45,852 bases of DNA from Clostridiaceae bacterium (GTDB taxonomy: Bacteria; Bacillota; Clostridia; Tissierellales; Sporanaerobacteraceae). The notes beneath the pieces are model-generated. The model did not search any database, had not been told where the DNA came from, and saw only the letters and a list, made by a program, of their open reading frames with translations. The stretch lies in contig JAHXQP010000019.1 of the NCBI GenBank assembly GCA_019391515.1, forward strand, positions 1-45,852. The letters are read 5' to 3'. Position 1 is the stretch's first letter, and each line of letters opens with the position of its first letter. Below are positions 6,734 to 33,884 of this stretch, piece after piece. The position numbers and the translations under genes were made by a program.

Positions 6734-6749
6734 TGCTTTTACCTCCTAT

Positions 6750-7661: not shown

Positions 7662-7892
7662 ATATCCTCCTTATCAAAATCCCTACATGAATTTTATCTT
7701 TTTTAAAAAATTAACTTTAACTATAAATCCAAAAAAGAAAAAGGGTTTTGTTATGTGTTATAACTTTTTCTGTAATAGATACTCATAAACTTTATCTATC
7801 ATTTAAAACTTATAAATTTATAATGTTACATACAAGCCTGTTTCCCTCAAAAATCTGCAAATATTTATTAATAAAATATAAATATTTGTTTC

Positions 7893-11912: not shown

Positions 11913-13044
11913 ATATAACGTCCTCCACATCCTCTTTTGCCATTTTTGGATAAAGAGGTAAAGATATTATCCTGCTATATGTTTTTTCTGCAACTGGGAA
12001 ATCCCCTTCATTATATCCATAAGTATTTCTATAATATGGGTGAAGATGAACAGGTATAAAGTGTACACTAGTACCTATGTTATATTCTGCTAATTCTTCA
12101 ATAAATTTATTCCTATCTATAGTTAAAAGCTCATCATTTATTTGAATGACATATAGATGCCAAGCGTGTGTTCCATCTTTCCATACAGATTTAGGCTCTA
12201 TTATTTCATCCATGTCTTTGAAAGCTTCATTGTACATATTTGCATATTCTTCTCTCTTTTTTTGCATATCTTCAAGCTTTTCTAACTGATGTAATCCCAT
12301 TGAAGCTTGAACGTCAGTCATATTGTACTTAAATCCAGGATATATTACCTCATAGTACCAAGAGCCGCCTTTATCGTATCTATTCCATGCACTTTTACTC
12401 ATTCCATGTAAACTATATATCCTAGCCTTTTCAGCTAGTTCATCATCATTTGTTGTAAGCATACCACCTTCGGCAGTACTTAAATTCTTTGTTGCATAAA
12501 AACTGAAAGCAGTTGCATCTCCTATATTTCCAATAGTTTTTCCTTTATATTTTGTATATACAGCGTGAGCAGCATCTTCTAAAACAAATAAATTGTATTT
12601 CTTAGCTATATCCATAATTCTATCCATATCACAAGATTGACCTGAATAATGAACTGGAACTATAGCTTTGGTCTTTTCTGTTATTTTTTCTTCTATCTTA
12701 TTTACATCAATATTATAAGATTCAGGGTCTATATCAACAAATACAGGTTTTGCTCCTGCATGAATTATAGTATTTGCCGAAGATGTAAATGTAAAAGGTG
12801 TGGTTATTACTTCATCACCTTTGCCAATACCTCTTGCTATAAGTGCAACATGTAATGCAGCAGTACATGAGTTCATAGCAATAGCGTGTTTTGCTCCAAC
12901 ATATTCAGCAAACTTCTTTTCAAATTCAATAGTTTTAGGCCCTTTTGATATCCAATTTGATTTAATTGTATCAACAACTTCATTTATTTCTTTATCATCC
13001 ATATCTGGCAAACAATAAGGTAAAAACTCATTTCTTTTATTCAT
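11875..13044 (-). CDS. DegT/DnrJ/EryC1/StrS aminotransferase (PglE/ArnB-like)
   Basis: A 389-aa PLP-dependent sugar aminotransferase. It shows NWISKGPKTIEFEKKF, NSCTAALHVAL, TTPFTFTSSANTI, the cofactor aspartate in VLEDAAHAV, and the Schiff-base lysine at K186 in FYATKNLSTAEGGM. It is clearly diverged from LegC in the same operon. It lies upstream of the initiating transferase and pglF, so it most likely aminates the PglF 4-keto product to a UDP-4-amino sugar. ArnB-like L-Ara4N synthesis is less likely because no ArnA partner is seen. A GAGGAG site precedes the ATG. Confidence 0.86.
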   Translation of the reverse strand: MNKRNEFLPYCLPDMDDKEINEVVDTIKSNWISKGPKTIEFEKKFAEYVGAKHAIAMNSCTAALHVALIARGIGKGDEVITTPFTFTSSANTIIHAGAKPVFVDIDPESYNIDVNKIEEKITEKTKAIVPVHYSGQSCDMDRIMDIAKKYNLFVLEDAAHAVYTKYKGKTIGNIGDATAFSFYATKNLSTAEGGMLTTNDDELAEKARIYSLHGMSKSAWNRYDKGGSWYYEVIYPGFKYNMTDVQASMGLHQLEKLEDMQKKREEYANMYNEAFKDMDEIIEPKSVWKDGTHAWHLYVIQINDELLTIDRNKFIEELAEYNIGTSVHFIPVHLHPYYRNTYGYNEGDFPVAEKTYSRIISLPLYPKMAKEDVEDVIYAVKEIVSKYRK

Positions 13045-13360
13045 GATAACATCTCCTCAAAAATAAAATATATTTTATCATAACCATCACTTTTTCTTAA
13101 TGTGTTTTTTAATAATTAATTTTCTAGAAGTATTATAAACCTAGCCTTTGCTATTTCACTTTTATTTCCAAATAAGTCGCAATATATAATTCTGTATTTA
13201 AATAGTATTCCACTAGGCTTTAATCAGTTATAACTTTTCCTCCAATTTTAACATTTTCTTAAACATATGACAAGTTTACAACTAAAAACTTATATTAGTT
13301 AACTATACATTGTTACCAAATGCATAATTATTACACATAACTTTATTTTAACATTTTAAC
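13045..13360 (-). other. 316-base AT-rich spacer inside the polysaccharide locus
   Basis: No supported gene on either strand. The spacer separates the ptmE-legF-legI-legG-legH block from the aminotransferase/pglF block, while other gaps in this run are mostly under 60 bases. On the minus strand a GGAGG near 13235 is not followed by a usable open frame. I could not find a convincing -35/-10 pair, although an internal promoter for the downstream block would be expected here. Confidence 0.5.
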
Positions 13361-13996
13361 TTATTCTCCTAGCACTCTAGCAGGAACCCCTGCAACTTTA
13401 GTATTACTTTCCACATTCTTTATAACTACTGAACCGGCTCCAATCGTTACATTAGATCCAATCGTCAATCCCTGTATTACTTTTGTTCCCATTCCTATAA
13501 AAGTATCATTATTTACCTTAACATTACCAGCAAGAATAGTTCCAGGGGATATTTGAACATTATCTTTAATAACGCAATCATGCTCTATTATTGAACCTGT
13601 ATTAATAATAGAGTTCTTTCCTATTTTTACATTAGGATTTATAATTGTCCCTGCCATCAAACAAGTACCCTCGCCTATATTTGAATAAGAAGATACAACA
13701 GCATGTTTATGAATTAGAGTGGGAATTTTAAAACCTATACTTTTAGCTTTTTTATACAATTTATTTCTCAAGCCCATATCTCCTATAGCTCCAACACATA
13801 TAAAGGCGTACTCCACTCCTTTTTTATAGATATCTTCAAGCATATCATCACTGCCTATAATTGGTATTCCCAATATTTCTTTACTATTTGATGACTTTTC
13901 TGTAATTCCCAATACTTTATATTCATTAGTACTCCTTATTATATCTATGATTACTTTTGAATGTCCGCCACCGCCAATAAGAACTATACTTTTCAT
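13361..13996 (-). CDS. legH: NeuD/PglD/LegH-type sugar O/N-acetyltransferase
   Basis: A 211-aa protein of the NeuD/PglD family. It has an N-terminal Rossmann-like sugar-nucleotide domain (IVLIGGGGHSKVIIDII). A left-handed beta-helix of hexapeptide repeats (about 95-205) follows, with the catalytic histidine in NTGSIIEHDCVI and the C-terminal VAGVPARVLG. It would acetylate the 4-amino group of the LegC product using acetyl-CoA. Position directly after legG supports LegH. Because only one such acetyltransferase is present while two 4-amino-sugar branches exist, it might serve both. The exact substrate is inferred. Confidence 0.82.
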   Translation of the reverse strand: MKSIVLIGGGGHSKVIIDIIRSTNEYKVLGITEKSSNSKEILGIPIIGSDDMLEDIYKKGVEYAFICVGAIGDMGLRNKLYKKAKSIGFKIPTLIHKHAVVSSYSNIGEGTCLMAGTIINPNVKIGKNSIINTGSIIEHDCVIKDNVQISPGTILAGNVKVNNDTFIGMGTKVIQGLTIGSNVTIGAGSVVIKNVESNTKVAGVPARVLGE

Positions 13997-14021
13997 AGAA
14001 TCACCACGTTCTTCAGAATAT

Positions 14022-15173
14022 TTAATATGTTAATTTTTTAAATAATAATTTTTTATCTATATTAATATTTTTAATAACATCTAGAATCTTATAACTAGTT
14101 GTACCGTCACCAAATAAATTTTCCATATGACTTATTTCTTCTTTATATAAATTGTCATATAATGCCTTTTGTATCCCTTTTTTTATAGACTTACTATCAT
14201 AGTTAACATCAATGATATTTTTATTCCTCAACCTTCCTTTTTGCCTATCACCTATATTCACTACAGGAAGTTTAAAATATGGCGTTTCTATAATTCCACT
14301 AGATGAATTACCTACCATAACATCTGCATATTTTAATAAACTTAAATATCTGAGTTGACCTAAATTATCAAATACATAGGCATTATCATTACTTCTAACA
14401 TATTCTTCAATCTTTTTAATAATTATCTTGTTTCCATAATCAGCATTAGGATAAGTAAATATAAACTTAGCATCAAATTCAGAAATTGCTTCTAAAAGAT
14501 TATTTATTTGTTCCTCAATATTTTCAATATTTAAAGTAACTGGATGATAAGTAATTAAAAAAATCTTCTTATTAAATTTAATCTCTAATTCTTCTTCTAA
14601 TTTTTCTTTTGTAAACAATTTTAATCTCCTTATATTTTCTAACCCTGATTGCCCAACATTATAAACTCTCCATGGTTCTTCACCCATTTTTATTATTCGT
14701 TCCTTATAATACTCTGCTCCTGGAAAGTGAATATGAGACATTTTAGTTATAGCATGTCTAATTTGTTCGTCTACTGCCCCTTCTGTAGACTCACCACCGT
14801 TCATATGTAGAATAGGTATATTCATCATCATAGCGCAAGTTGCTGCTACAAAGGTTTCATATCTATCTCCTAGTATTAGTAACATATCTGGTTTTAATCT
14901 ATCAAAACTTTGGGCCATTTGAATCATTTCTAATCCCATAGATTTTAGTAATGCACTTTTCTTATCTGAATCTATGAGTATATCTATTTCTTCATCTATT
15001 TTAAAACCATCTTTTTCTATTTGTTCTTTTGTATAACCATACTCTTTTGAAAGATGACTACCTGTAACTATTAGCAGTAATTCTAAATCTTTATCGTTTT
15101 GGATTTCCTTCATAGTCCAATAAAGCAAACCATATTCCGCTCTCGTTCCTGTTACAACTAATATTTTCCTCAT
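14022..15173 (-). CDS. legG: NeuC/LegG-like hydrolysing sugar-nucleotide 2-epimerase
   Basis: A 383-aa GT-B-fold epimerase of the NeuC/LegG type, which releases the NDP and inverts C2 to give free 2,4-diacetamido-2,4,6-trideoxymannose. Landmarks are the N-terminal VTGTRAEYGLLYW, LILGDRYETFVAA, HMNGGESTEGAVDEQIRHAITKMSH, TYHPVTL, and VGNSSSGIIETPYFKLPVVNIGDRQKGR. These match hydrolysing epimerases rather than the WecB type. It is followed by the acetyltransferase and preceded by the NeuB-like synthase with only 5 bases between. Use of a GDP- rather than UDP-sugar is inferred from ptmE. Confidence 0.9.
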   Translation of the reverse strand: MRKILVVTGTRAEYGLLYWTMKEIQNDKDLELLLIVTGSHLSKEYGYTKEQIEKDGFKIDEEIDILIDSDKKSALLKSMGLEMIQMAQSFDRLKPDMLLILGDRYETFVAATCAMMMNIPILHMNGGESTEGAVDEQIRHAITKMSHIHFPGAEYYKERIIKMGEEPWRVYNVGQSGLENIRRLKLFTKEKLEEELEIKFNKKIFLITYHPVTLNIENIEEQINNLLEAISEFDAKFIFTYPNADYGNKIIIKKIEEYVRSNDNAYVFDNLGQLRYLSLLKYADVMVGNSSSGIIETPYFKLPVVNIGDRQKGRLRNKNIIDVNYDSKSIKKGIQKALYDNLYKEEISHMENLFGDGTTSYKILDVIKNINIDKKLLFKKLTY

Positions 15174-15178
15174 TCTTA

Positions 15179-16216
15179 TTACACCTGCCTTATATCACAA
15201 AGCTGTATAAATTCATCTTGTTTTATATCTTTGATAGCTACTTTACCAATCATATCATATACATATTTAGGTTTTAAACCCTTTCCTGGTCTTTTAAAAG
15301 CTATATTGTTATATGTTATTTTTTCTCCTTTTTTTATATCTTCTTTAGCTACAATACTTTTTCTTGCTACTAGCTTGGTATTTTCCTCACTCTTATTACA
15401 TTGCTTAATTCCATCACCCATAGAATCTTCTATATTTCTTATACTTTCTACCATCTTTTCAAATTCATAAGGTTCTAAAGAAGCCTTGTGATCAGGTCCT
15501 TCCATACACCTATCTAACGTAAAATGTTTTTCTATCACAGTGGCTCCTAAAGAAACAGCCGCTATTGGCACTTCTATCCCTATTGTATGATCAGAATAAC
15601 CCATAGGAAGTTTAAATGCTTCTTTCATAGTGACCATAGCCTTTAAGTTCACATCCTTATAAGATGTAGGATAATTTGATGTACAGTGGAGTAACGTAAT
15701 ATCCTTATTTTTCGTTTTAAAAATTGACTCAATAGCTTCCTCTATTTCTCCTAAGTTAGCCATTCCAGTTGAAAGAATTATAGGCTTATGTTTTTCTGCA
15801 ATATATTCTAATAATGGTAGATTGGTTAAATCTCCAGATCCTATTTTATATAATGGCACATCTATTTTTTCTAATAGATCTACACTTTCAAAGTCAAAAG
15901 GTGTTGAAATAAACATTATTCCTTTTTCTTCACAATATTTTTTGAGAATAATATGTTCTTCAAATGAAAGTTCCAATTTTTTTAACATTGTATATTGATT
16001 ACCTTCTCCTACAGACTTTTTTTGATATTCTGCTTTTGGAGCATCCTTTGTAACAAGATCTTCAGCTCTAAATGTTTGAATTTTTATTGCATCTGCCCCT
16101 GCTCTAAAAGCTTCATCTACAAGTTTCTTTGCTATATTTATATCTCCATTATGGTTTACACCCGCTTCTGCAATTATAAAACATTTATTATCCGAAAAAC
16201 TAAATTTTTTATTCAT
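15179..16216 (-). CDS. legI: Nonulosonic acid synthase (NeuB/LegI)
   Basis: A 345-aa NeuB-family synthase that condenses the 2,4-diacetamido sugar with phosphoenolpyruvate to form legionaminic acid. It has the NeuB TIM barrel (IAEAGVNHNGDINIAKKL, KIQTF, STPFDFESVDLL, YKIGSGDLTN, LSTGMA, GYSDHT, EKHFTLDR, GPDHKASLEP). A C-terminal SAF/antifreeze-like domain (about 285-345) contains RKSIVAKEDIKKGE and RPGKGLKP. The start overlaps the end of legF by 8 bases. Sialic acid synthase is the alternative within the family, but legB/legC in the locus favour legionaminate. Confidence 0.92.
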   Translation of the reverse strand: MNKKFSFSDNKCFIIAEAGVNHNGDINIAKKLVDEAFRAGADAIKIQTFRAEDLVTKDAPKAEYQKKSVGEGNQYTMLKKLELSFEEHIILKKYCEEKGIMFISTPFDFESVDLLEKIDVPLYKIGSGDLTNLPLLEYIAEKHKPIILSTGMANLGEIEEAIESIFKTKNKDITLLHCTSNYPTSYKDVNLKAMVTMKEAFKLPMGYSDHTIGIEVPIAAVSLGATVIEKHFTLDRCMEGPDHKASLEPYEFEKMVESIRNIEDSMGDGIKQCNKSEENTKLVARKSIVAKEDIKKGEKITYNNIAFKRPGKGLKPKYVYDMIGKVAIKDIKQDEFIQLCDIRQV

Positions 16217-23160: not shown

Positions 23161-24222
23161 CTAACACTTTATAATACTCTTGTCTACTTTCCCTAATGTT
23201 TCCCAAATACCCGCTATATACATTGCACCTAAGGCTCTATCATATAACCCATAGCCAGGTCTACCTGTCTCTCCCCATATCATCCTTCCATGATCTGGAC
23301 GAAGGTAACCATTGAATTTATTCTTATAAAGTACTTTCATAATCTCTACTATATCTAAAGATCCTTCCGAAGAGTAGTGAGCACTTTCTTCAAAACTACT
23401 ATTTCCTACTAATTTAATATTTCTAACATGCATAAAATGGATTCTTTCTTGTGAAGAATACTTATCTACCATTTTTATTACATCATTAAAATCTCCACTT
23501 CCAAGAGAGCCTGTACAAAATGTTAGACCATTGTATTTGTTGTCTACAATTTTTAAAAATCTATCAATATTTTCTTCTGTAGTTATAATTCTTGGCAGCC
23601 CAAATATAGGCCATGGTGGGTCATCTGGATGAATTGCCATCTTTACATCATTTGCCTCTGCTACAGGTATTATTTCTTTTAAAAAGTATTCTAGGTTTTC
23701 CCAAAGGTCCTCTTCATCTATTTTTGAATATTTATGAAATACATCTTTTAATTCTTCTTTAGTATAACTAGAATCCCAGCCAGGAAGGGACAATTCTCCC
23801 TTTAGTGGATCAATTTTATCAATTTGCTCTTTATAATAAACTAAGGCTGTTGATCCATCAACTAAAGTTCTGTCTAATTCTGAACGAGTCCAATCAAATA
23901 CTGGCATAAAATTGTAACATATTACCTTTATTCCTGCTTTTGCTAGATTCCTAATATTTACTTTATAGTTCTCAATATATTCGTCCCTTGTAGGAGCTCC
24001 AAGCTTTATATCTTCATGTACAGGAACGCTTTCTATAACATCAAAATTAAATCCTGCTTTTTCTACTTCTTCCTTTAATTTTATTATGCTTTCCATACTC
24101 CATACTTCTCCAACAGGCACATCATATATAGCAGTTACAATACTATCTATACTTGGTATTTGTCTTATATATTCAACCTTTACTGGATCTTCTTCACCAT
24201 ACCATCTAAATGACAATTTCAT
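23161..24222 (-). CDS. uxuA: Mannonate dehydratase
   Basis: A 353-aa UxuA-family enzyme converting D-mannonate to 2-keto-3-deoxy-D-gluconate (KDG). It shows the family start [26 protein letters not shown], the metal-site [23 protein letters not shown] and, near the end, the catalytic [10 protein letters not shown] and [13 protein letters not shown]. Length is normal for the Gram-positive form. It ends the minus-strand sugar-acid cluster, 11 bases after the YiaK-like gene. KDG would pass to kdgK and eda on the other side of the locus. Confidence 0.93.
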
Positions 24223-24233
24223 GTAAATCCCCC

Positions 24234-25238
24234 TTACATACTTTTAATTCTTTCCCAAATTTCATCTACTACTGGTATTCCATTTAAAAGATTATCTTTT
24301 CTTACGGATATGACCCTTTCTCCTGGATAACGTATTTTTGTATTTTCTTCTGCTGGCTCTGATTTTTTTAAATCTTCCAATACCCGATTTACAATATCAT
24401 CAGATACTTCAGTAGGATTAAATTTGCTAGGATCAATGGCAATTAAAACTTGAGATAGGCCATATTCATCTTCAAATTTTTTCCCAATTTCTGATGTAGA
24501 AAATCCTCCAGATAAAATTGTTGCTATTAAATCAAATCCAATAGACATGCCTGAGCCTTTCCAGAATCCAATAGGTAATACCCGCCATGTTTTTTCGATT
24601 TCAACTGGATTTGTTGTTATTTTCCCTTCTGTATCGAATCCTCCAGCTACTGGAAGCTCTTTTCCTTTCAATTTATATTCTTCTATTTTTCCATAAGAGA
24701 ATTGTGACATTGCTGTGTCTACTACTACATGCTCCCCATTACTTCTAGGTATGGACATTACAAATGGATTGTTACCTATTCTTCTATCTTTAGCTCCCCA
24801 TACAGGCATATTTGGCATAGTATTGGTCCAACAAATACCTATACATCCTGCATCTGCGGCTTGCCACCCATAAGAACCAGCCCTCATCCAATGGTTTGTA
24901 TTTCCTAAAGCTACAATGCCTATGCCATATTCTTTTGAAAGTTCAATGGCTCTATTCATAGCATTTTTGGCATTTAAATTTCCCATTCCTTTTTTTCCAT
25001 TCCATCTTTCTAAAGCACCAAAACCTTCTACTTTTTCTGCTTTAGCCTTCACATCTATATATCCTTTGTCAATATATTCAATAACCCTTGGAAACCTATT
25101 GACACCATGGGAATAAACCCCATCTAAACTATTCTCAGCAAATAGCTTGGCAGATTCATGGGCATCTTCTTTATTTAAGCCTTTCTTAACTAGTATCCTT
25201 TCAAATTCTTTAACCATATCATCAAATTTAATCCTCAT
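24234..25238 (-). CDS. Ldh2/YiaK-family NAD(P)H-dependent oxidoreductase
   Basis: A 334-aa malate/L-lactate dehydrogenase-superfamily (Ldh2/YlbC/YiaK) enzyme. It has [19 protein letters not shown] with the catalytic histidine, [42 protein letters not shown], and [21 protein letters not shown]. It is closest in feel to YiaK, the 2,3-diketo-L-gulonate reductase. In this cluster, next to uxuA and with no UxuB in the window, it may instead be a hexulosonate (fructuronate-type) reductase yielding mannonate. That is inference. The gene follows a strong terminator, so its transcription may differ from that of the upstream genes. Confidence 0.82.
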
Positions 25239-25296: not shown

Positions 25297-25330
25297 AAAA
25301 AGGAATATGGTCCTTTCCATATTCCTTTTT
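25297..25330 (-). terminator. Intrinsic terminator inside the sugar-acid cluster
   Basis: A perfect 14-bp stem (AAAAAGGAATATGG, complement at 25317-25330) with a 6-base loop; on the minus strand TTTTTAAAATTT follows. It lies just after the HEXXH gene and before the YiaK-like gene, which face the same way, so it would reduce or stop read-through into yiaK-uxuA. Confidence 0.8.
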
Positions 25331-25340
25331 GTAAACCAAC

Positions 25341-25994
25341 CTATATTTTTTTAGATATTGAGTCTATTATATTTTCATAAATTTCTATTGCTAAATCTTT
25401 ATTATGTGGATAGAGTAATAACACATCTAAAATATTTGGTGAAAAATCTAAATTTAAAAGCTCCTTAGCAAAAGCCATACCTGCAATTTCATCTTGTGCT
25501 ACTAGCCTAGATTTATATTTAAATTTTCCAATTGACCAAAGGATTATTTTATTTGTATTTATATATAAATTTTCATCATGTTCTTGAAAATGGTGGAATA
25601 TTTCATGAGCTATAACTATATCTTCTAGTTCTACATTTTTTAGTGCAACTAGATCCCATTCTTCTATTAAATCGGTACCTAATTTTATATTGTCTGTATA
25701 TATTGTTATTTTATTTGGCTTTTGATATGTTCCGAAATAAATATATTCTAGTCCACTATTAGTATCTTTCTTGCATAGTTCTAAATCAAGTACCTTTAGA
25801 TATTCAACTATATCCTTAAAGCCATATTTTCTTTTCAATCCTCTTGCTACTTCTCTTCCACATTCTAAAGATTTTTCTATTATTTCTTCCTTTAGTTTTG
25901 CATCCACTTTATCTCGAATAGGATCATGGGAAAATATATAGTATCCAAATTCTTTATCCGAAAGCTTCATCAAATATTCTATTTTTTCTTTCAT
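25341..25994 (-). CDS. Uncharacterised protein with HEXXH zincin motif
   Basis: I do not recognise a named family for this 217-aa protein. It has no signal peptide or membrane segment, so it should be cytoplasmic. A metalloprotease-like HEIFHH (130-135) follows a hydrophobic run (EDIVIAHEIFHHFQEH), and about 35 residues later VAQDEIAGMAFAKELL offers E169 as a possible third zinc ligand, as in gluzincins and ImmA-like proteins. Its start codon overlaps the stop of the hydantoinase-like gene (TAATG), which suggests coupled translation and a shared task. No substrate can be proposed with confidence. A role in processing the hydantoinase-like protein, or as a metal-dependent hydrolase, is possible. 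Confidence 0.75.
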   Translation of the reverse strand: MKEKIEYLMKLSDKEFGYYIFSHDPIRDKVDAKLKEEIIEKSLECGREVARGLKRKYGFKDIVEYLKVLDLELCKKDTNSGLEYIYFGTYQKPNKITIYTDNIKLGTDLIEEWDLVALKNVELEDIVIAHEIFHHFQEHDENLYINTNKIILWSIGKFKYKSRLVAQDEIAGMAFAKELLNLDFSPNILDVLLLYPHNKDLAIEIYENIIDSISKKI

Positions 25995-28126
25995 TATAAA
26001 TCATTCCTAGCTCCAATAAGTATAACTTCATCTTGAGATGATCTAGTCAGAAGTTCTGAGTCCATCACCATATGAAGTTGTTGCACATCCATCATTCCTT
26101 CATAGTCAATGACCTTGGCACCTATACATAGATAAATATCTGGTGAAAGTTTTATATCACTTTTATATACAGACATTTCTTCCCAGAGCTTGTCTGCTGC
26201 TGCTCTTACACCACCTGTTGTTGTCTTAATGGCAGTACCATCACCTCTTTGAATCTTAATAAAACCTTTTTTATCTATTACCCTTATTTCATTAGCTTTC
26301 CCTTTTTTACTTGTATATACATAGAAGTTGCTATTTTTAGCTACTAATTCAGCTTTATTCTTTTCAACTTTCATAGATTTTGCTGCAAGTTCTAATGCCT
26401 CATCATCTGTTAACTTTTTAGATAGATCTGTAGTTTGAATTTCTGTAGAACCTGTTGCTATAGCTCTTACTTTTGAAGTTTGAGAGTCTATCTCTATTTG
26501 TATCTCCACACTTTCAGGACTTGCACCTGATTTAATTGCCATATCAGTTGCCTCTGTCCTTATTTCTTGTAAATCTATAGGTGTAGGACTTGGTATTACC
26601 CTTTCTACAACATCCCTTACCATTGCAAGAGCTACCCCTATAGATGAGATAACTTCTGCATTTTCAGCTATTTTATAGTCTAATCCCATTTTCTTAGCTG
26701 TAAATGGCAATAGTGCTGTTGCTCCACCACCTCCACCTATTAAAGTCATCTGGTCTTTTTCCACCTTATATTTTTCAGATAATCTATTGATTACATTGAT
26801 ACATATATCGGATGCTTTCTCTAAAATTTCTGTAGCTACTTCTTCAACTGTCATATTCAGCTCATCAGCCAATGGTTTTATTGCCTTTACACAAGATTCA
26901 TAGTTTCCATATGAATAATCTGTTGGTTTTATCATTTTTAAAGCATTTGCTGCACAGGTTACTGTAATAGCCACCCTTTGCCCGTTTTCTGACTCTATAG
27001 CTATATAATCAGATGGGTCACCTTCAAGGGGTTGTACCCTAACTACTTTAGGATTTACTATATCATTAGGATCTGTAAAAGCTGCATAAGGAAGATTGGC
27101 TATATGGGCCGATCTTGGTCCTGTATTTATGATAGAACTATTACTTGCCCTAACCATAGAACCTCCTGCGACTCCTGATACCTGAACATCCAGAGAGTTT
27201 ATAAGGGTTTTGTGACCACCTACTATAGAGTAGTCAACCATTGGTCTACCATTTTTTATAACACCTATATCTGTACTTGTACCACCAACTTCGAAAAAGA
27301 TACCATTTGATACCCTTAGGTACATAAGTGCTCCTACTGTGGAAGCTGCTGGACCTGACAACATCGTAAGTACAGGTCTTTTTCTCATTTCATCTATACT
27401 CATTACACCACCGTCACCCCTCATTATCATAAGAGGTGCTTTTATTCCGGCCATTTTTACACTTGTTTCAGTACTATCTGCTGTTTCAAACATCTTAGGT
27501 AAAATGGATGCATTGATAACAGCTGTCCTAGTACGGCGAGTAAGTCCATATAATTTACTTATATCCGAGGCTACCGATACTTCAATTCCCTTTTTTTCGC
27601 CTACTTCTCTTACATCTACTTCTTCAGTCATATCATCAACACCAAAGGCCTTTGAAGCAACAATAACCTTGCAGCCTTCATTACTTAACTCATCTACAGC
27701 CTTTTCTACTTCGCCTATATTATAATCTTTTAAATCTATATATCTATGGGAAGTTTCAATCTTCCTTTTTCCTGATTCATCTAATTTTATATTCTTTACA
27801 TTACTTTGTTTCTTTGATAGAAATCCACTTAAAAAGCCTTTGCCCATTCCAACAATACCAGTCTTAGCCACATCACCTTCTAGAAGAGCATTGGTAGCTT
27901 GCGTTGTACTATGAGCGATAAACACTACCTCTTCTGGTGATATTCCATTTTCTACAAGACATTTTCTAAACGCTTCTACTACTCCAGCCGAAACACCTAA
28001 TTCATTATCATGAGTAGTCTTTACAGAACCTATACCTACAATTTCATAGGTAGCATTATCTATGGCTACAGCTTTTGTGTGAGTTCCACCAACATCTATA
28101 CCAACCCTAATTTGTCTTTTTGACAT
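25994..28126 (-). CDS. Hydantoinase/oxoprolinase-like ATPase (HyuA family)
   Basis: A 710-aa protein of the hydantoinase A/oxoprolinase family, whose members use ATP to open lactam or hydantoin rings or to carboxylate ketones. The N-terminal domain has RVGIDVGGTHTKAVAID and HSTTQATNALLEGDVAKTG. The central domain has FEVGGTSTDIGVIKNGRP and VQVSGVAGGSMVRA. The C-terminal part has LIGGGGGATALLPFTAKKMG. No HyuB partner is present, although many family members require one. The start at 28126 has an ideal AAGGAGG site and follows the permease gene by 16 bases, so the 13-codon extension is rejected. Being in a KdgR-type regulon, its substrate may be a sugar-derived ring compound, but that is speculative. 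Confidence 0.85.
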   Translation of the reverse strand: MSKRQIRVGIDVGGTHTKAVAIDNATYEIVGIGSVKTTHDNELGVSAGVVEAFRKCLVENGISPEEVVFIAHSTTQATNALLEGDVAKTGIVGMGKGFLSGFLSKKQSNVKNIKLDESGKRKIETSHRYIDLKDYNIGEVEKAVDELSNEGCKVIVASKAFGVDDMTEEVDVREVGEKKGIEVSVASDISKLYGLTRRTRTAVINASILPKMFETADSTETSVKMAGIKAPLMIMRGDGGVMSIDEMRKRPVLTMLSGPAASTVGALMYLRVSNGIFFEVGGTSTDIGVIKNGRPMVDYSIVGGHKTLINSLDVQVSGVAGGSMVRASNSSIINTGPRSAHIANLPYAAFTDPNDIVNPKVVRVQPLEGDPSDYIAIESENGQRVAITVTCAANALKMIKPTDYSYGNYESCVKAIKPLADELNMTVEEVATEILEKASDICINVINRLSEKYKVEKDQMTLIGGGGGATALLPFTAKKMGLDYKIAENAEVISSIGVALAMVRDVVERVIPSPTPIDLQEIRTEATDMAIKSGASPESVEIQIEIDSQTSKVRAIATGSTEIQTTDLSKKLTDDEALELAAKSMKVEKNKAELVAKNSNFYVYTSKKGKANEIRVIDKKGFIKIQRGDGTAIKTTTGGVRAAADKLWEEMSVYKSDIKLSPDIYLCIGAKVIDYEGMMDVQQLHMVMDSELLTRSSQDEVILIGARNDL

Positions 28127-28142
28127 AATATTTCCTCCTTTA

Positions 28143-29426
28143 CTATCCAAACATAAAGTAGGCAAGTATTATATTTACAGCACTAATAAGCCAAGCCCAC
28201 AATACTCCAGTCTTCAGAAAGTCTTTTACTCCAACTTTACTGTAGTTAAGAGCCCATAAGTTCCATGATTGAGTAGGACAAGCTGATAGGTTCATTGTAA
28301 TAGTTGGTACATACATAAGTGGAAATAAGAACTTTTGTGAGAACATTCCTATTGCGTTAAGTACTCCAACTGTAGCACTACCAGCACCAAATATTGTAAG
28401 AGGTCCTCTAAATAATCCTAAAGGTGCAATTATAATAAATACTAAACTTATTAATAATGTATTTTCCGGCAATATATTTCCGAGAATTGCCTCAAAGAAA
28501 GGTGCCGCCACACCAGATACCTTATTGAACATCGGCAAAATAAATAAGAATCCTAAAAGTCCTGCTATATCGATTACACCTTCATAGAAGGTTCTTGTTA
28601 TTGTTCTAGATGCTTCGTTAAAGTTTGGAAGCTTTCCACAAACTGCAAGAGCAAATATAGTTGCTACAATAAAAGCAGGAATTGGTTGCCAATTAAAAAA
28701 TATTGCAAGACTCACTGGTATAATTGGAGTTATAAGAGCTATAGTAGGTATGTCCTCATTTTCTTCAGAGGCCTTTGTTTTAGCTGCCCATCCATGAACC
28801 CTATTCTTTCTAAGCTTAACAACCAACATAACAACTATAAATATAAGTTGTACTGCCATAGCTGAAAATCCAAATCTTAAATAGTTCCAATCGTATTGAA
28901 ATCCTTCAAATATTGCTTGCATCTGTTTAAAAAGTACTATATTCACATACATTCCACTACCAACACTCATAAGGTAAGTAGATACTGCTAATGATTTAGG
29001 TACGCCAAGTGACATAAGAATTGGCAGTATAATAACCCCTATAGCAACTACTGCACCTGCTCCGAATGTAGAAGTAAAAATTATTCCTGTAACTATAGAT
29101 AATAAAACTGTAGTTATTAAAGGATCGTCTCCTCCTAATTCTGTTGTACTTTTTATAAGTTTGGAGGCAATACCTGTTTCTAAAAGTACCCTACCAAACC
29201 AACTACCGAAAATTACTATTACTGCAGTAGGTCCCCAGCTTTCTGGCCCACCTTGAAATATATTAAGTTGTGCTTCTTCCCAGGTTAGTTGTCCACCTGC
29301 AATACATAACCCAACCCATATAATGGCCATAACTGCAAAGCCTATCATGAGATTTCCACCACGTGCAGCATAATAGATTAAACCTAGATAGGTTATTAAT
29401 AAGATAATACCAATAAATATATCCAT
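28143..29426 (-). CDS. Polytopic permease, probably a carboxylate/organic-anion transporter
   Basis: A 427-aa integral membrane protein with about eleven hydrophobic segments and no signal for an ABC or PTS system. Conserved-looking polar/glycine segments include STFGAGAVVAIGVIILPILMSLGVP, GLFRGPLTIFGAGSATVG and NLSACPTQSWNLW. They place it near the ion-transporter superfamily (citrate/gluconate-type secondary carriers), but I cannot name the family precisely. AAAGGAGA precedes the ATG. It is the first gene of the operon with the hydantoinase-like and HEXXH proteins and is controlled by a KdgR-like operator, so it probably imports that pathway's substrate. Confidence 0.75.
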   Translation of the reverse strand: MDIFIGIILLITYLGLIYYAARGGNLMIGFAVMAIIWVGLCIAGGQLTWEEAQLNIFQGGPESWGPTAVIVIFGSWFGRVLLETGIASKLIKSTTELGGDDPLITTVLLSIVTGIIFTSTFGAGAVVAIGVIILPILMSLGVPKSLAVSTYLMSVGSGMYVNIVLFKQMQAIFEGFQYDWNYLRFGFSAMAVQLIFIVVMLVVKLRKNRVHGWAAKTKASEENEDIPTIALITPIIPVSLAIFFNWQPIPAFIVATIFALAVCGKLPNFNEASRTITRTFYEGVIDIAGLLGFLFILPMFNKVSGVAAPFFEAILGNILPENTLLISLVFIIIAPLGLFRGPLTIFGAGSATVGVLNAIGMFSQKFLFPLMYVPTITMNLSACPTQSWNLWALNYSKVGVKDFLKTGVLWAWLISAVNIILAYFMFG

Positions 29427-29604: not shown

Positions 29605-29627
29605 AATATGAAACATGGTTTCATATT
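29605..29627. promoter_or_regulatory. KdgR-like operator at the permease promoter
   Basis: A perfect inverted repeat with 10-base arms AATATGAAAC and GTTTCATATT around ATG. It matches the TGAAAC...GTTTCA pattern of IclR-family KdgR boxes known from enterobacteria. It begins at the predicted transcription start (about 29628), an ideal position for repression by the IclR-type protein encoded next door. Confidence 0.72.
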
Positions 29628-29634
29628 TGTTTTC

Positions 29635-29663
29635 ATTATACTATATAAAAAAATTATTTACAA
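29635..29663 (-). promoter_or_regulatory. Sigma-A promoter for the permease/hydantoinase operon
   Basis: Minus strand TTGTAA (29663-29658) and TATAAT (29640-29635) with a 17-base spacer. The transcript would start near 29628, giving an untranslated leader of about 200 bases. I see no recognised regulatory RNA in that leader. Confidence 0.72.
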
Positions 29664-29706: not shown

Positions 29707-29748
29707 AAATGAACTTGGATATATTATTTAATATATCCAAGTTCATTT
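29707..29748 (-). terminator. Strong intrinsic terminator overlapping the IclR gene end
   Basis: A perfect 18-bp stem (29707-29724 with 29731-29748) and 6-base loop, followed on the minus strand by TTTTTTATG. The TAA stop of the regulator gene is at the stem-loop junction, so one arm is coding sequence. Confidence 0.9.
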
Positions 29749-30482
29749 GAGATCATATTAGCATATTTAATTACTTCTTTAGCCATTTCTTCAACCTTTT
29801 CTTCCGTAACCCTTATAGTCGGCCCCGAAATACTAATTGCTCCTTCTACTTTACCAAATCTATTAAACACAGGAGCTCCTATACATCTCACACCTAGTTC
29901 GTTTTCTTGATCATCTACAGAATAACCTCTATCCCTTATTTCTTTCAATTTATCTTTTAAATCATCTAAATCCGTAATTGTATATTCTGTAAATTTCTCT
30001 ATCTTACTATTGTTCCATATCTCCTCTACTTCATCCTCTTCCATAAACGCTAACATTGCCTTGCCTACAGAAGTGCTATACATAGGACTCCTCTTCCCTA
30101 TATTCGATGCCATACGTATTGTATTATCTGCTTCTACTTTATCAATATAAACTATTTCATTTCCATCTTGAATAACAAGATGGACTATTTCATTGATTTT
30201 CTCCATTAAAGCTTTCGTATAAGGTTTAGATGCACTTAATATATCTATATCTTTAATCCTTTTACTTCCTAACTCAAAAAGTTTAAGAGTCAATTTGTAT
30301 TTATTTGTATCTAGGTCCTGCACTACATACCCCTTGTATGCTAATGTGGATAATAACCTATGTACAGTACTTTTATGTAAGCCTACTTTATCACTAATTT
30401 CCATTATCCTTAAACCATCATCATAATCAGCAAGTAATTCTAATATACTTAATGTCCTATCTACTGATTGAACAATTTGCAT
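29724..30482 (-). CDS. IclR-family transcriptional regulator (KdgR-like)
   Basis: A 252-aa IclR-type regulator. The N-terminal winged helix-turn-helix (about 1-60: SVDRTLSILELLADYDDGLRIMEISDKVGLHKSTVHRLLSTLAYKGYV) is followed by the IclR effector domain (about 75-250: LVIQDGNEIVYIDKVE, SVGKAMLAF, GYSVDDQENELGVRCIGAPVF, ISGPTIRV). KdgR proteins of this family sense KDG and repress sugar-acid genes. It lies between its two likely targets, divergent from eda-kdgK and downstream of the permease operon promoter, both of which carry GTTTCAT half-sites. GGAGG is 8 bases before the ATG. Confidence 0.92.
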   Translation of the reverse strand: MQIVQSVDRTLSILELLADYDDGLRIMEISDKVGLHKSTVHRLLSTLAYKGYVVQDLDTNKYKLTLKLFELGSKRIKDIDILSASKPYTKALMEKINEIVHLVIQDGNEIVYIDKVEADNTIRMASNIGKRSPMYSTSVGKAMLAFMEEDEVEEIWNNSKIEKFTEYTITDLDDLKDKLKEIRDRGYSVDDQENELGVRCIGAPVFNRFGKVEGAISISGPTIRVTEEKVEEMAKEVIKYANMISNELGYIK

Positions 30483-30691: not shown

Positions 30692-31318
30692 ATGAAAAAG
30701 CATGATATTATAAAAAGAATTGAAAACACTGGTATTGTAGCTGTTGTTAGGGCTGAAAATGATGAACACGCAAAGGATATTGCCTATGCTTGTATGGATG
30801 GTGGCATCCATGCTATAGAAATCGCTTTTACTGTACCAGGTGCTCATAAAGTAATTGAAAGTTTAGTTGAAGAGTTTGGAGATAATCTTTTAGTTGGTGC
30901 TGGAACTGTTCTTGATAGCGAAACTGCTAGAGTTGCTATTTTAGCTGGTGCTAAATATATTGTCAGTCCAGCCTTTGACCTAGATACTGCTAAACTATGT
31001 AATAGGTATCAAATTCCATATATGCCTGGTTGCATGACATTGACTGAAATGATTAGAGCTATGGAAGCTGGAGCAGATATTATTAAGGTATTCCCTGGAA
31101 GTGTCTTCGGTCCATCTTTCATAAAAGCTGTAAAAGGTCCTCTTCCACAAGCTGTATTGATGCCTACTGGCGGAGTAAATTTAGATAATGTGGATCAATG
31201 GATAAAGAATGGTTGTGTAGCAGTTGGCGTAGGTGGAGGACTTACAAAAGGTTCCAAGGATGAAATCACTGAAACTGCTAAGAAGTTTGTTGAAAAAATT
31301 AAGAATGCTAGAAAATAA
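30692..31318 (+). CDS. eda: KDPG/KHG aldolase
   Basis: A 208-aa class I aldolase that splits 2-keto-3-deoxy-6-phosphogluconate to pyruvate and glyceraldehyde-3-phosphate. Features are GIVAVVRAE, GGIHAIEIAFTVPGA, LVGAGTVLD, FIVSPAF-like YIVSPAFD, the Schiff-base lysine in DIIKVFPGSVFGP, PTGGVNLDNV and VAVGVGGGL. A GGGAGG site lies 7 bases before the ATG. It is co-directional with kdgK, 24 bases downstream, and completes the route from UxuA. The same enzyme can act on 2-keto-4-hydroxyglutarate. Confidence 0.95.
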   Translation: MKKHDIIKRIENTGIVAVVRAENDEHAKDIAYACMDGGIHAIEIAFTVPGAHKVIESLVEEFGDNLLVGAGTVLDSETARVAILAGAKYIVSPAFDLDTAKLCNRYQIPYMPGCMTLTEMIRAMEAGADIIKVFPGSVFGPSFIKAVKGPLPQAVLMPTGGVNLDNVDQWIKNGCVAVGVGGGLTKGSKDEITETAKKFVEKIKNARK

Positions 31319-31342: not shown

Positions 31343-32368
31343 ATGATGAAAAAAGTTGTTACTTTGGGAGAGATAATGCTTAGACTTATTCCACCAAGAA
31401 ATGAAAGGTTTGTTCAAGCCAAATCTTTTGATGTTGTCTATGGGGGTGGAGAAGCTAATGTAGCTGTATCTTTAGCTAATTATGGATTGGATTCTTATTA
31501 TATTACAAAATTACCTAAACATGAAATAGGTCAAGCTGCTGTTAATGAACTTAGAAGATATGGCGTTCACACAGACTATATTGTTAGAGGCGGAAATAGG
31601 GTCGGTATCTATTTTTCAGAAACTGGTGCTTCTATGAGGCCTTCAAAGGTTATCTATGACAGGGCTTATTCTGCTATTGCTGAAGCCGATGTATCTGATT
31701 TTGATTTTGATGAGATATTCAAAGATGCAACATGGTTCCACTTTTCTGGTATCACCCCTGCATTGAGTGACAAGGCTGCTATACTTACTGAAGAAGCTTT
31801 AAAAGCTGCTAAAAGACATGGAGTTACTGTATCAGTAGATCTTAACTATAGGAAAAATCTATGGACTCCTGAAAAAGCTCAAAAAGTAATGACTAATTTA
31901 ATGCAATATGTTGACGTATGTATTGGAAATGAAGAAGATGCAGAACTAACATTAGGTTTTAAACCTGGTAATACCGATGTTACTACTGGTGAATTGGAAC
32001 TTGAAGGATATAAGAATATATTTAAACAAATGATGGAGAAATTCAACTTTAAATACGTTGTTAGCTCCCTTAGAGAATCTTATTCAGCTTCTGATAATGG
32101 TTGGTCCGCATGTATTTATGATGGAAATGAATTTTATCATTCTAAAAAGTATGATATTAGAATAGTTGACAGAGTTGGTGGTGGAGACTCCTTCGCATCA
32201 GGCTTTATCTATGGTCTAATATCTGATAAAGACTTTAAAGATGCACTAGAATTCGGAGTAGCTGCCTCTGCATTAAAACATACTATCCATGGTGATTTCA
32301 ACATGGTTAGTATAGATGAAGTGGAAAATCTGCTACAAGGGGATGCTTCTGGTAGAGTGCAAAGATAA
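31343..32368 (+). CDS. kdgK: 2-keto-3-deoxygluconate kinase (PfkB family)
   Basis: A 341-aa ribokinase/PfkB-family sugar kinase that phosphorylates KDG to KDPG. It has GEIMLRLIPP, VYGGGEANVAVSLANYG with the glycine-rich substrate site, VDLNYRKNLW, GNEEDAEL, and the C-terminal anion-hole and catalytic-base motif RVGGGDSFASGFIYGL. AAAGGAGG lies upstream. Two adjacent ATGs (31343 and 31346) are possible starts, and the second has better spacing. It follows eda and ends at a terminator shared with the convergent sigma-54 activator. Confidence 0.92.
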   Translation: MMKKVVTLGEIMLRLIPPRNERFVQAKSFDVVYGGGEANVAVSLANYGLDSYYITKLPKHEIGQAAVNELRRYGVHTDYIVRGGNRVGIYFSETGASMRPSKVIYDRAYSAIAEADVSDFDFDEIFKDATWFHFSGITPALSDKAAILTEEALKAAKRHGVTVSVDLNYRKNLWTPEKAQKVMTNLMQYVDVCIGNEEDAELTLGFKPGNTDVTTGELELEGYKNIFKQMMEKFNFKYVVSSLRESYSASDNGWSACIYDGNEFYHSKKYDIRIVDRVGGGDSFASGFIYGLISDKDFKDALEFGVAASALKHTIHGDFNMVSIDEVENLLQGDASGRVQR

Positions 32369-32462: not shown

Positions 32463-33884
32463 TCATTCTCCTTTAATATCCTTGCATATCTCTATATTTA
32501 GTTTTTTAAACTTGTTATAAAGTGTAGTTCTGTGTATTCCTAATTCTTTAGCTGTTTTGGAAATATTATAATCATTTTTCACTAGATAATCCAATATTAT
32601 TTCTTTTTCAAACTGATTTATAATTATATCTAAGTCATTCCCTTTAAGATTTCCTGAAAGCCTTTTCCCAGAGGTGATAATATCTGATGGTAACTGTTTT
32701 ATACCTATCATTTCATTATCTACTAGTGCATAGGCACTTTCAACTACATTTTTTAATTCTCTTACATTTCCAGGCCAAGTATGTTTTACTAAAAGTTCCA
32801 TAGCTTTTGGACTAATACTTGTATCTGTCTTATGTTTTCTATTTAATTCATCTAAAAATTTTTCAATGAAAAGCTCTATATCTTCAGGTCTTTGCCTTAA
32901 GGGAGGAATATGGACATTTATTACATTGAGCCTATAGTATAAATCTTCTCTAAATTTTTTCTCTTCTACAAGCTTCTTTAAATCTTGATTTGTTGCAGAT
33001 ATAACTCGTACATCAATAGGTATAGGTTTATAGCCACCAATTCTTTCAACTTCATTTTCTTGAAGCACCCTTAAAAGTTTAACTTGCATATGCATAGGCA
33101 TATCCCCTATTTCATCTAAAAAAATGGTACCACCATTAGCTAATTGAAACTTTCCTTTTTTACCACCTTTTTTAGCTCCTGTGAAAGCCCCCTCCTCATA
33201 TCCAAAAAGTTCAGATTCCAGGAGTTCTTCTGGAATAGCAGCACAATTTATACTTATAAGTGGCTTGTCTTTCCTCTTAGATGAATAATGAATATAGTTT
33301 GCAAAGACTTCTTTTCCCGTTCCTGTCTCACCAGTTACTAGCACAGGTAAATTATTTCTTGAAGCTTTTTCAGCTAATCTTTTGGTTCTTTCAAACTCTT
33401 CACTATTACCTACAACCTTATCATCTGAAAACTTATCTTCTCCTAACCTTCTAAGTTCATCTTTATAGTATTTTAACTCTTGATCCTGTGCCCTCAATTT
33501 TTCTGCTAATTCAATAGTACGAAACCTAAACTTTACTTGTGCCACTGCTGCAATTACTTTCCCATTTCTCTTAACTGGTGCCCTTGTTACTAATAAGAAA
33601 TCATCTCCTTGAATCTTTTCTTTATTAGCGAACTCATGGATTACATCCACTTCCTTTTTTCCTGTAGCTGCAATTTCTGGCATTTTCGTATTTTTAATAA
33701 ATTTTCCTATATGTTCTCCAATAGCTTCTTCTTTAATAGTTCCTAAAAAATCACAATAGGCTTTATTCATTTCCAATATAATTCCGTCTACATCAGTTAC
33801 AACAAAGCCATCCTCTGTCATATCTAAAATTTCATCAAAAACTAATTTATAATTTTCATAGTCATCATATAGTTCAATATGCAC
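32463..33884 (-). CDS. Sigma-54-dependent transcriptional activator (PAS-AAA+-Fis)
   Basis: A 473-aa bacterial enhancer-binding protein. An N-terminal PAS domain (about 12-120) is joined by a short coiled linker to the AAA+ domain, which has GETGTGKE (185-192), the sigma-54-contacting GAFTGA (232-237), FLDEIGD (255-261) and the arginine-finger region LYYRLN. A Fis-type helix-turn-helix (about 438-462: NISKTAKELGIHRTTLYNKF) ends it. The start is a GTG at 33884 with GGGGG 7 bases upstream. It is divergent from the crotonase gene, and -24/-12 promoters precede both that gene and the GntP operon, its probable targets. The PAS domain may sense a small acid or CoA-pathway intermediate, which is inference. 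Confidence 0.93.
   Translation of the reverse strand: MHIELYDDYENYKLVFDEILDMTEDGFVVTDVDGIILEMNKAYCDFLGTIKEEAIGEHIGKFIKNTKMPEIAATGKKEVDVIHEFANKEKIQGDDFLLVTRAPVKRNGKVIAAVAQVKFRFRTIELAEKLRAQDQELKYYKDELRRLGEDKFSDDKVVGNSEEFERTKRLAEKASRNNLPVLVTGETGTGKEVFANYIHYSSKRKDKPLISINCAAIPEELLESELFGYEEGAFTGAKKGGKKGKFQLANGGTIFLDEIGDMPMHMQVKLLRVLQENEVERIGGYKPIPIDVRVISATNQDLKKLVEEKKFREDLYYRLNVINVHIPPLRQRPEDIELFIEKFLDELNRKHKTDTSISPKAMELLVKHTWPGNVRELKNVVESAYALVDNEMIGIKQLPSDIITSGKRLSGNLKGNDLDIIINQFEKEIILDYLVKNDYNISKTAKELGIHRTTLYNKFKKLNIEICKDIKGE

Follow-up and report, generated by a model that had tools for sequence, protein, structure and literature searches.

Results

A permease, a HyuA-like protein, and a zincin are encoded side by side

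The stretch of DNA studied here, called the window below, is the 45,852 nucleotides (nt) of contig JAHXQP010000019.1 from a Clostridiaceae bacterium (assembly GCA_019391515.1), and our subject is a trio of genes at positions 25,341 to 29,426 that encodes a permease (PRM), a HyuA-like protein (HYU), and a zincin (ZIN). A preliminary description of this DNA had located a permease, a HyuA-like, and a HEXXH gene here, and all three open reading frames (ORFs) were confirmed at the following coordinates.

28143..29426, minus strand: PRM, permease, distant relative of DcuC and CitMHS, 427 amino acids
25994..28126, minus strand: HYU, HyuA-like ASKHA-fold protein without HyuB, 710 amino acids from ATG; variants K18 and E279, no GxxPGP
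25341..25994, minus strand: ZIN, zincin with HEIFH at residues 130-134 and E169, 217 amino acids

The end of PRM is 16 nt from the start of HYU, and the HYU stop and ZIN start overlap by one base, which confirms the TAATG coupling noted earlier; an alternative TTG start of HYU lies at 28165 in an open frame.

PRM, HYU, and ZIN form a widespread, co-inherited module. In profile searches of 398 evenly drawn genomes of the phylum, the own genome counted, ZIN was found in 20 and HYU in 22, and all 20 ZIN genomes also held HYU (Fisher p 9e-32; this value and the Mantel values below ignore phylogeny). In the HYU-only genome G276 the HyuA gene stands at a contig end (L204), and in the other, G564 (L203), no zincin occurs in the 20 kb read, a true absence. 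Among 249 genomes of the order, again with the own genome counted, PRM (E <= 1e-20) and the full-length HyuA family (E < 1e-180) occur in the same 13, and ZIN lies next to HyuA in all of these (12 by single-sequence search, G048 by clustering). Relatives of HyuA were detected in at least 585 stretches of species-representative genomes at E <= 1e-3, possibly including other HyuA branches, and the best 80 of these, from Enterococcus, Paenibacillus, Neobacillus, gut Clostridia, and others, were taken as named loci. A zincin is present at 88 of 95 loci (the window, 14 others, and the 80 named, with six duplicates and L058 included), and at four of the seven others (L087, L105, L135, L147) the contig breaks off within 170 nt of the HyuA end.

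Counts given below for 81 loci leave out the duplicates (L074, L075, L082, L085, L088, L089), L058 with its broken HyuA, and seven loci where no intact HyuA was called (L098, L107, L112, L114, L117, L135, L147), and they keep L104/L137 and L108/L134, each pair of which comes from one assembly. The clusters, the ORF calls, and the 6-gene neighborhood are choices specific to this analysis, and each cluster name (UXUB, KDGK, EDA, HPS, PHI, LacI, etc.) was assigned from one or a few members that were scanned. PRM stands directly 5' of HYU at 76 of the 81 loci, while at 35 of 65 the start of ZIN coincides with or precedes the end of HYU; ZIN is sometimes found a few genes downstream (L110, L206-L208). 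The distance matrices of the trio proteins at the 65 loci are correlated (Mantel r of 0.78 for HYU-PRM and 0.76 for HYU-ZIN, with a third value of 0.64), even as mean identity falls from 0.61 in HYU to 0.49 in PRM and 0.30 in ZIN, and the gene order is kept across Bacillota, Chloroflexota, and Spirochaetota. A decayed trio was observed at L058 (G131:C1:1602000-1621000), where a zincin ORF and a 212-amino-acid HyuA fragment remain and no permease was called; UxuA is present in that genome only as a fragment, as if lost together with the trio.

HYU belongs to the HyuA family and has an altered ATP site

HYU, the only HyuA copy in the 2.84-Mb own genome, matches the Pfam families Hydantoinase_A (5.5e-65, 219.9 bits) and Hydant_A_N (8.3e-21), and it is 98% identical to its counterpart in A. 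bizertensis (L082) and 93% identical to that of Anaerosalibacter massiliensis ND1 (L074), the source of the window being a relative of Anaerosalibacter. The absence of a HyuB partner, claimed in the preliminary description, was borne out, as Hydantoinase_B (PF02538) was found in none of six genomes of the family, that is, the own genome and five others, with 6 of 14 control genomes positive. In fold comparisons, the AF2 (AlphaFold 2) model of HYU (predicted local distance difference test score, pLDDT, 86.6) was matched best by acetone carboxylase beta (Z 25.4), acetophenone carboxylase alpha (ApcA; 24.7), NMHase (21.8), and CapA (20.9), and the match spans residues 3 to ~580 with Z of 20.6-25.4 to six chains of the hydantoinase/ketone-carboxylase family. 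The stretch of HYU beyond this match is not put forward as a new domain. Three ATP motifs are presented as conserved in the HyuA family in the motif descriptions of two structure papers, namely, phosphate 1 (DAGGTFTD in CapA), phosphate 2 (DVGGT; DMGGT in CapA), and the adenosine motif GxxPGP, and the motif description of one of them calls all three strictly conserved in the hydantoinase enzyme family. Each is changed in HYU. In phosphate 1, taken as DxGGTxTD, D11 and GGT are retained in 79 of 79 HYU sequences and the last Asp is replaced by Lys in 77; in phosphate 2 (DxGGT) the Asp is Glu in all 79 (E279 in the window), at the position of D295 in the DMGGT motif of CapA, which is listed among the mutated residues in PMC8453981; and GxxPGP occurs in none of the 79. 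As controls, three further HyuA-like proteins from the order (L040-L042) were inspected: phosphate 1 is kept in two, DxGGT in all three, and GxxPGP in none. Because FGGY kinases and BadF/HgdC-type ATPases usually have Lys at the final position of phosphate 1, and because weak matches to BcrAD_BadFG were obtained (22.2 bits for HYU of the window and 32.6 for that of L226, against a cut-off of 31.5), the ATP site of HYU is, as read from its motifs, rebuilt rather than plainly lost. The alignment retains 119 invariant columns across the 79 sequences. As for PRM, scores of 18.7 bits for CitMHS and 27.6 bits for DcuC in the Pfam/NCBIfam scan, each under its cut-off, agree with a distant relationship, and the protein is a probable importer of an organic anion.

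ZIN represents a zincin family with a predicted fold nearest to IrrE

No Pfam or NCBIfam model matched ZIN of the window, and across the 73 members of its family no Pfam family matched more than 4; Peptidase_M78 matched a single one of the 73, at E 0.065. The only invariant residues in the 73 are H130, E131, H134, E169, and F175. With a ZIN model of pLDDT 95.2, the best solved fold was the IrrE/PprI entry 3dti (Z 10.0, root-mean-square deviation 2.7 over 115 residues), and four IrrE/PprI entries lead the search with Z of 9.5-10.0, the next reaching 7.7, figures to be read with a Foldseek E of 0.58, an alignment of about half of the protein, and the fact that Z below ~13 may be due to chance for helical models. 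Judged from the model, ZIN appears nearest to the IrrE-type metallopeptidase fold, closer than to a lactamase subunit. IrrE is a repressor-cleaving protease; no XRE repressor was seen beside ZIN among the regulators scanned, which are of the LacI, GntR, and IclR families, unclassified neighbors not being checked. Identification of ZIN as a known defense protein was rejected, as PADLOC returned no match for three proteins. The two matches of the ZIN profile to PDB sequences, the better at E 0.015, were both to unrelated proteins.

A second, diverged zincin family (~25% identical) was observed directly upstream of a ROK-family gene at five of the five loci read (L068-L072; in L068 at 7307-8825 of the locus, G000:C1:37306-38824). 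AddAB-type helicase-nuclease genes lie beyond the pair. The two genes overlap in L068 and L071, and the ROK assignment was confirmed by Pfam in L068, L070, and L071. Since ROK proteins also have the ASKHA fold, zincins of the ZIN kind recur beside ASKHA proteins, and MtfA-Mlc is a precedent for the pairing of a zincin with a ROK protein.

The trio is associated with genes for D-mannonate and KDG metabolism

In the window the trio is flanked by genes of sugar-acid metabolism.

24234..25238, minus strand: yiaK-type dehydrogenase (Ldh_2), NCBIfam equivalog, 485.7 bits against a cut-off of 316
23161..24222, minus strand: uxuA, D-mannonate dehydratase, NCBIfam equivalog, 411.6 against a cut-off of 199.55
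30692..31318, plus strand: eda, KDPG/KHG aldolase, PRK06552, 297.8 bits against a cut-off of 238
31343..32368, plus strand: PfkB sugar kinase, probable kinase of 2-keto-3-deoxygluconate (KDG), below all curated cut-offs listed

The YiaK of the window scores 352.6 bits against E. coli YiaK, the next protein reaching 148, and the other members of the YIAK cluster that were scanned also exceed the equivalog cut-off (L149, 453.6; L226, 455.1; L065, 364.2; L062, 367.0). UxuA and Eda are both present in the own genome above curated cut-offs, and the PfkB kinase scores highest (567 bits) with a model of fused KHG/KDPG aldolase and kinase, the cut-off of which is 700. Further along the window, a separate catabolic region was observed, with a sigma-54 activator containing a PAS domain at 32463-33884 (top NCBIfam match PrdR, 460.5 bits against a cut-off of 795) and, divergent from it, an ORF at 34066 that looks enoyl-CoA hydratase-like by eye.

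The preliminary description had tied the trio to mannonate/KDG metabolism and had named co-occurrence with sugar-acid genes elsewhere as one check of the idea. Such co-occurrence was found: the yiaK, uxuA, uxuB, kdgK, and eda clusters account for 82 of 865 genes within 6 genes of HYU and for 4 of 556 further out, and at least one of the five stands within 6 genes at 46 of the 81 loci. UxuA occurs in 12 of the 13 trio genomes of the order versus 31 of the 236 others, figures inflated by relatedness, and Eda occurs in the same 12. The YIAK cluster is present at 20 of the 81 loci, and yiaK and uxuA stand together beside the trio at 8 (expected 2.5). In a HyuA tree with 81 rows, built by a quick method, neighborhoods with yiaK/uxuA/uxuB require at least 10 changes and a second context, that of HPS, at least 5; these are gains or losses, and the associations have therefore been made or broken many times. 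These findings suggest that in the branch of the window the trio is likely a dedicated sugar-acid module.

The second context, designated route B, has HPS-like genes at 16 and PHI-like genes at 17 of the 81 loci, and the 16 HPS-like loci always carry LacI, with a KDG-kinase-like PfkB in 15 and a PA2260-related protein in 12. YIAK and HPS are never found together (0 of 81 loci, expected 4.0, p 0.009), and we read the YIAK and HPS/PHI outfits as alternative downstream routes for one intermediate. The one HPS-like protein scanned scores 157.5, under the HxlA cut-off of 200, and its PHI-like neighbor passes (203 against 160). The pair could be a 2-keto to 3-keto isomerase and a decarboxylase that yield ribulose 5-phosphate, or it could serve formaldehyde fixation. 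Route-B loci of Enterococcus, Vagococcus, and Neobacillus, among them L080, L093, and L229, have the pair next to genes for KDG-kinase-like proteins and often Eda.

Two other contexts were observed. In a distant HyuA subclade (L066, L067, L206, L209, L213, L231), the trio is accompanied by a PF12831-type flavin adenine dinucleotide (FAD) oxidoreductase (c87) and often by a 230-amino-acid protein (c86) for which the one member scanned had no Pfam or NCBIfam match; the substrate of this subclade is likely different. At three loci of one genus, a gene for a small membrane protein follows PRM-HYU-ZIN-YIAK (L061, 6250-6531; L062, 13149-13424; L063, 13595-13870), and the one scanned, from L062, is DUF1294.

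Regulation and transcript structure

The regulatory features around the trio are as follows.

29609..29623, no strand: KdgR-type operator palindrome TGAAACATGGTTTCA, ~180 nt upstream of PRM and just downstream of the -10-like TATAAT
29635..29663, minus strand: candidate promoter TTGTAA-17-TATAAT for PRM-HYU-ZIN, a consensus match only
29707-29748: terminator-like hairpin of 19 pairs at the end of the IclR regulator gene
29724..30482, minus strand: IclR-family KdgR-like regulator, KdgR equivalog 239.6, under the cut-off of 275
25297..25330, minus strand: terminator- or attenuator-like hairpin between ZIN and yiaK, GGAATATGG..CCATATTCC followed by T5 in the window

The KdgR-type operator put forward in the preliminary description was upheld as a site and less so in the identity of its regulator. 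TGAAACATGGTTTCA, the form of which we take to agree with the KdgR consensus, is the sole exact TGAAACNNNGTTTCA in the window (expected 0.01), and the same position in two sister genomes differs from the consensus by one mismatch in each, while the adjacent regulator remains under the KdgR cut-off. Matches to TGAAACNNNGTTTCA with up to two mismatches number 3 in the window against 2.8 expected, which is chance level, and therefore only the exact operator match is notable. No such site within two mismatches was found in the eda promoter. Promoter-type sites number 55 against 48.4 expected, and the candidate promoter is weak by itself. Sugar-acid control of the trio is thus plausible but not general.

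The idea of an operon leading into yiaK-uxuA also held in part. The genes adjoin on the same strand, but the hairpin at 25297-25330, which does not appear in the list of a simple scan, lies between them and is kept in three Anaerosalibacter-type genomes (z -3.2, -3.4, -3.1); expression of yiaK-uxuA therefore needs read-through or a second promoter. From these signals, the trio is best seen as its own transcription unit with possible read-through, and the IclR/KdgR-like regulator gene appears to be transcribed separately.

A matching operon in R. gnavus is strongly induced

In the transcriptome results of PMC11581127, agarooligosaccharides induce one six-gene operon of R. gnavus more than any other genes (log2 4.14-4.35); it is annotated as YhcH, a hydantoinase, a hypothetical "peptidase", uxuA, yiaK, and another hypothetical (RS16940-RS16965). 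The locus L226 (G655, genus of L129) contains the same six-gene set, YIAK-PRM-HYU-ZIN-YhcH-UXUA, in the order given by the tags of that paper's Discussion, behind a gene for a LacI regulator rather than KdgR. Table 3 and the Discussion of PMC11581127 were observed to differ on the uxuA and yiaK tags, and the Discussion's version, collinear with L226, is used here. No NCBIfam model matched PRM or ZIN of L226, which fits the two R. gnavus hypotheticals. Co-induction with uxuA, named in the preliminary description as a further check, is thus seen in the published data for uxuA and yiaK, with an unexpected inducer. The passages of PMC11581127 on this operon report that agarooligosaccharides inhibit growth, suggest a second resistance mechanism, and leave the operon's function open. 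In searches of full-text literature, this was the only paper on such an operon that we noticed, and it assigns no function. PMC7513527 was rejected as a report of the module, as in the part concerned its hydantoinase/oxoprolinase protein is named with a cytosine permease and DUF917, and ImmA is a separate item.

Discussion

The module identified in this study brings a divergent branch of a known superfamily together with new partners, and its function is a prediction. We tentatively propose, as a reading that is possible though short of an even chance, that it takes up a keto-sugar acid, activates it with ATP, and feeds it into D-mannonate/KDG metabolism, with the zincin as a partner of HYU. 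PRM would import an anionic sugar-acid compound, and HYU, whose relatives transfer phosphate to a carbonyl group at its enol or imidol oxygen, might activate that compound at the expense of ATP. The product would be a keto-hexonate, which YiaK could reduce to D-mannonate; UxuA would convert D-mannonate into KDG, which KdgK would phosphorylate before cleavage by Eda. KDG might in turn be sensed by KdgR, the presumed repressor of the trio. ZIN would act as a dedicated metallopeptidase-like partner that processes or controls HYU or a HYU-permease complex, a role more probable for it than that of a hydrolytic subunit. D-Mannonate has the 2S configuration, and 2-keto-D-gluconate is a candidate for the keto-hexonate because an S-selective 2-keto reductase of the Ldh_2 type would give D-mannonate from it. 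In its fullest form, the proposal is that a HyuB-free HyuA branch with a rebuilt ATP site, a new zincin family of IrrE fold, and a permease together activate a keto-sugar acid, and that such zincins pair more widely with ASKHA proteins such as HyuA and ROK; this we regard as conceivable, on the doubtful side.

Several findings weigh against the sugar-acid proposal. None of the five sugar-acid clusters lies within 6 genes at 35 of the 81 loci, 19 of which have a GntR regulator, and the genome G021, whose distant HyuA (46%) falls in the FAD-oxidoreductase subclade, has neither UxuA nor Eda, although G048 of the same subclade has both. The HPS/PHI-like genes of route B are not needed by the proposed pathway. 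ZIN is absent in L103, L141, L151, and L203, and the conserved ZIN-yiaK hairpin weakens the claim of a single operon. In L108, genes for a CoA-transferase domain protein and an enoyl-CoA hydratase abut PRM, and GntR/FCD and FAD_binding_2 genes follow ZIN (these genes occupy 6074-8606 and 12903-15592), a context that fits acyl-CoA rather than sugar-acid chemistry; the same clusters recur in L103 without ZIN. In the zincin-less L203, HYU is followed by a gene of the pyridoxal phosphate (PLP)-dependent ornithine/diaminopimelate/arginine decarboxylase family. The CoA-linked and decarboxylase contexts imply that the module may serve other organic acids in some branches. Finally, agarooligosaccharides are an odd inducer for a sugar-acid module.

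One alternative, close to the function first suggested for these genes, is that HYU and ZIN make up one ATP-driven hydrolase that opens a lactam, amide, or lactone derived from a sugar. HYU would phosphorylate the carbonyl, and ZIN, its zinc site standing in for the metal site of HyuB, would carry out the hydrolysis. The fold and family membership of HYU, the near-obligate and often overlapping linkage of the two genes, the invariance of HEXXH and the distal Glu in all 73 zincins, and the absence of HyuB would all agree with such an enzyme, as would the PLP decarboxylase-family gene of L203. A model of this kind is put forward in the mechanistic section of PMC8453981, where phosphorylation is assigned to CapA and metal-assisted hydrolysis to CapB. 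However, all three ATP motifs of HYU are unlike those of hydantoinases, and ZIN, which keeps only its metal site and F175 and is far less conserved than HYU, does not resemble an active-site subunit and has been lost from four loci with HYU intact. No nitrogen-handling family was seen among the recurring neighbor clusters that were identified, several clusters not being identified, and the nearest fold of ZIN is that of a protease that cleaves repressors. Opening of a lactam, lactone, or hydantoin is therefore a part of the preliminary description that was not supported, and we consider it unlikely.

Another possibility is that the module serves organic acids in general and feeds whatever pathway the host provides, sugar-acid or CoA-linked, the sugar-acid link being one specialization. 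The CoA-linked genes that abut the trio in L108 and recur in L103, the FAD-oxidoreductase subclade, and the 35 loci without sugar-acid clusters are in line with this idea, but sugar-acid clusters are by far the commonest enzyme company that was identified, and the L103/L108 branch accounts for only 2 of the 81 loci. As a general account this seems rather unlikely; nevertheless, the substrate of the module in other branches is probably another organic acid.

The induction in R. gnavus by growth-inhibiting oligosaccharides, for which the authors suggest a second resistance mechanism (PMC11581127), might indicate that the module serves not growth but a stress response to sugar derivatives that are reactive carbonyls or release formaldehyde, and the HPS- and PHI-like proteins of route B would be the formaldehyde-fixing pair. 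The HPS-like score below the HxlA cut-off speaks against this, YiaK-UxuA-KdgK-Eda is a carbon route, and the mutual exclusion of YIAK and HPS looks like that of alternative downstream routes; a stress function appears quite improbable. HYU might instead energize or gate PRM, by analogy with ArsA, which drives ArsB, with ZIN tuning the complex. The position of PRM directly upstream of HYU, the shared presence of the two in the same 13 genomes, and the trios without sugar-acid clusters would suit such a role, but 119 invariant columns seemingly exceed what gating needs, the HyuA relatives are enzymes, and to our knowledge no ASKHA ATPase drives a transporter; we regard this reading as very improbable. 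That the linkage is accidental or a fossil of gene order, as mere adjacency in the window and near-copies among related genomes might suggest, is refuted by the presence of HyuA in 20 of 20 zincin genomes of the phylum sample and by the Mantel correlations, and the order shared by three phyla makes it hardly credible.

Should the sugar-acid route be correct, a pathway, its transporter, and a new metallopeptidase-like family would be assigned at once, and HyuA-type ATP chemistry would extend beyond lactams and ketone carboxylation. It would also account for the R. gnavus operon that responds most strongly to a candidate prebiotic; in this one annotated case as tabulated, the HyuA is labeled a hydantoinase and two of its neighbors are labeled hypothetical. 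The pairing of zincins with ASKHA proteins would be a new kind of partnership.

Comparison with known systems

The yia operon of E. coli serves the use of 2,3-diketo-L-gulonate. YiaK, YhcH/YiaL-type, HUMPS decarboxylase-like, and IclR proteins recur around the trio, at different loci, while the TRAP transporter is replaced by PRM, UxuA, KdgK, and Eda are added, and HyuA and the zincin have no counterpart in yia. With the kgu genes of Pseudomonas, route-B loci share a PfkB kinase, LacI, and a protein for which PA2260, which we take to be KguE of 2-ketogluconate use, is the best relative of solved structure (one scanned, E 2.8e-11). No KguD-type reductase was noticed in route-B loci, none having been searched for. 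KguE is described in the relevant part of PMC11678583 as a predicted epimerase of unknown function, and kgu as described there includes no HyuA, zincin, or HPS/PHI-like pair. HYU shares its fold, the ASKHA ATP module, and the SGPA and GGT loops with HyuA, OplA, CapA, ApcA, and acetone carboxylase beta, whereas it differs from the hydantoinase/ketone-carboxylase family in lacking a HyuB-type subunit and in the alteration of all three ATP motifs, and it scores 79.3 bits against the CapA model, which has a cut-off of 1000. ZIN, distinguished from ImmA/IrrE (M78) by its link to an ASKHA protein, shares with these proteins the HEXXH motif and the distal Glu in an E-I-A-x-x-x-F helix.

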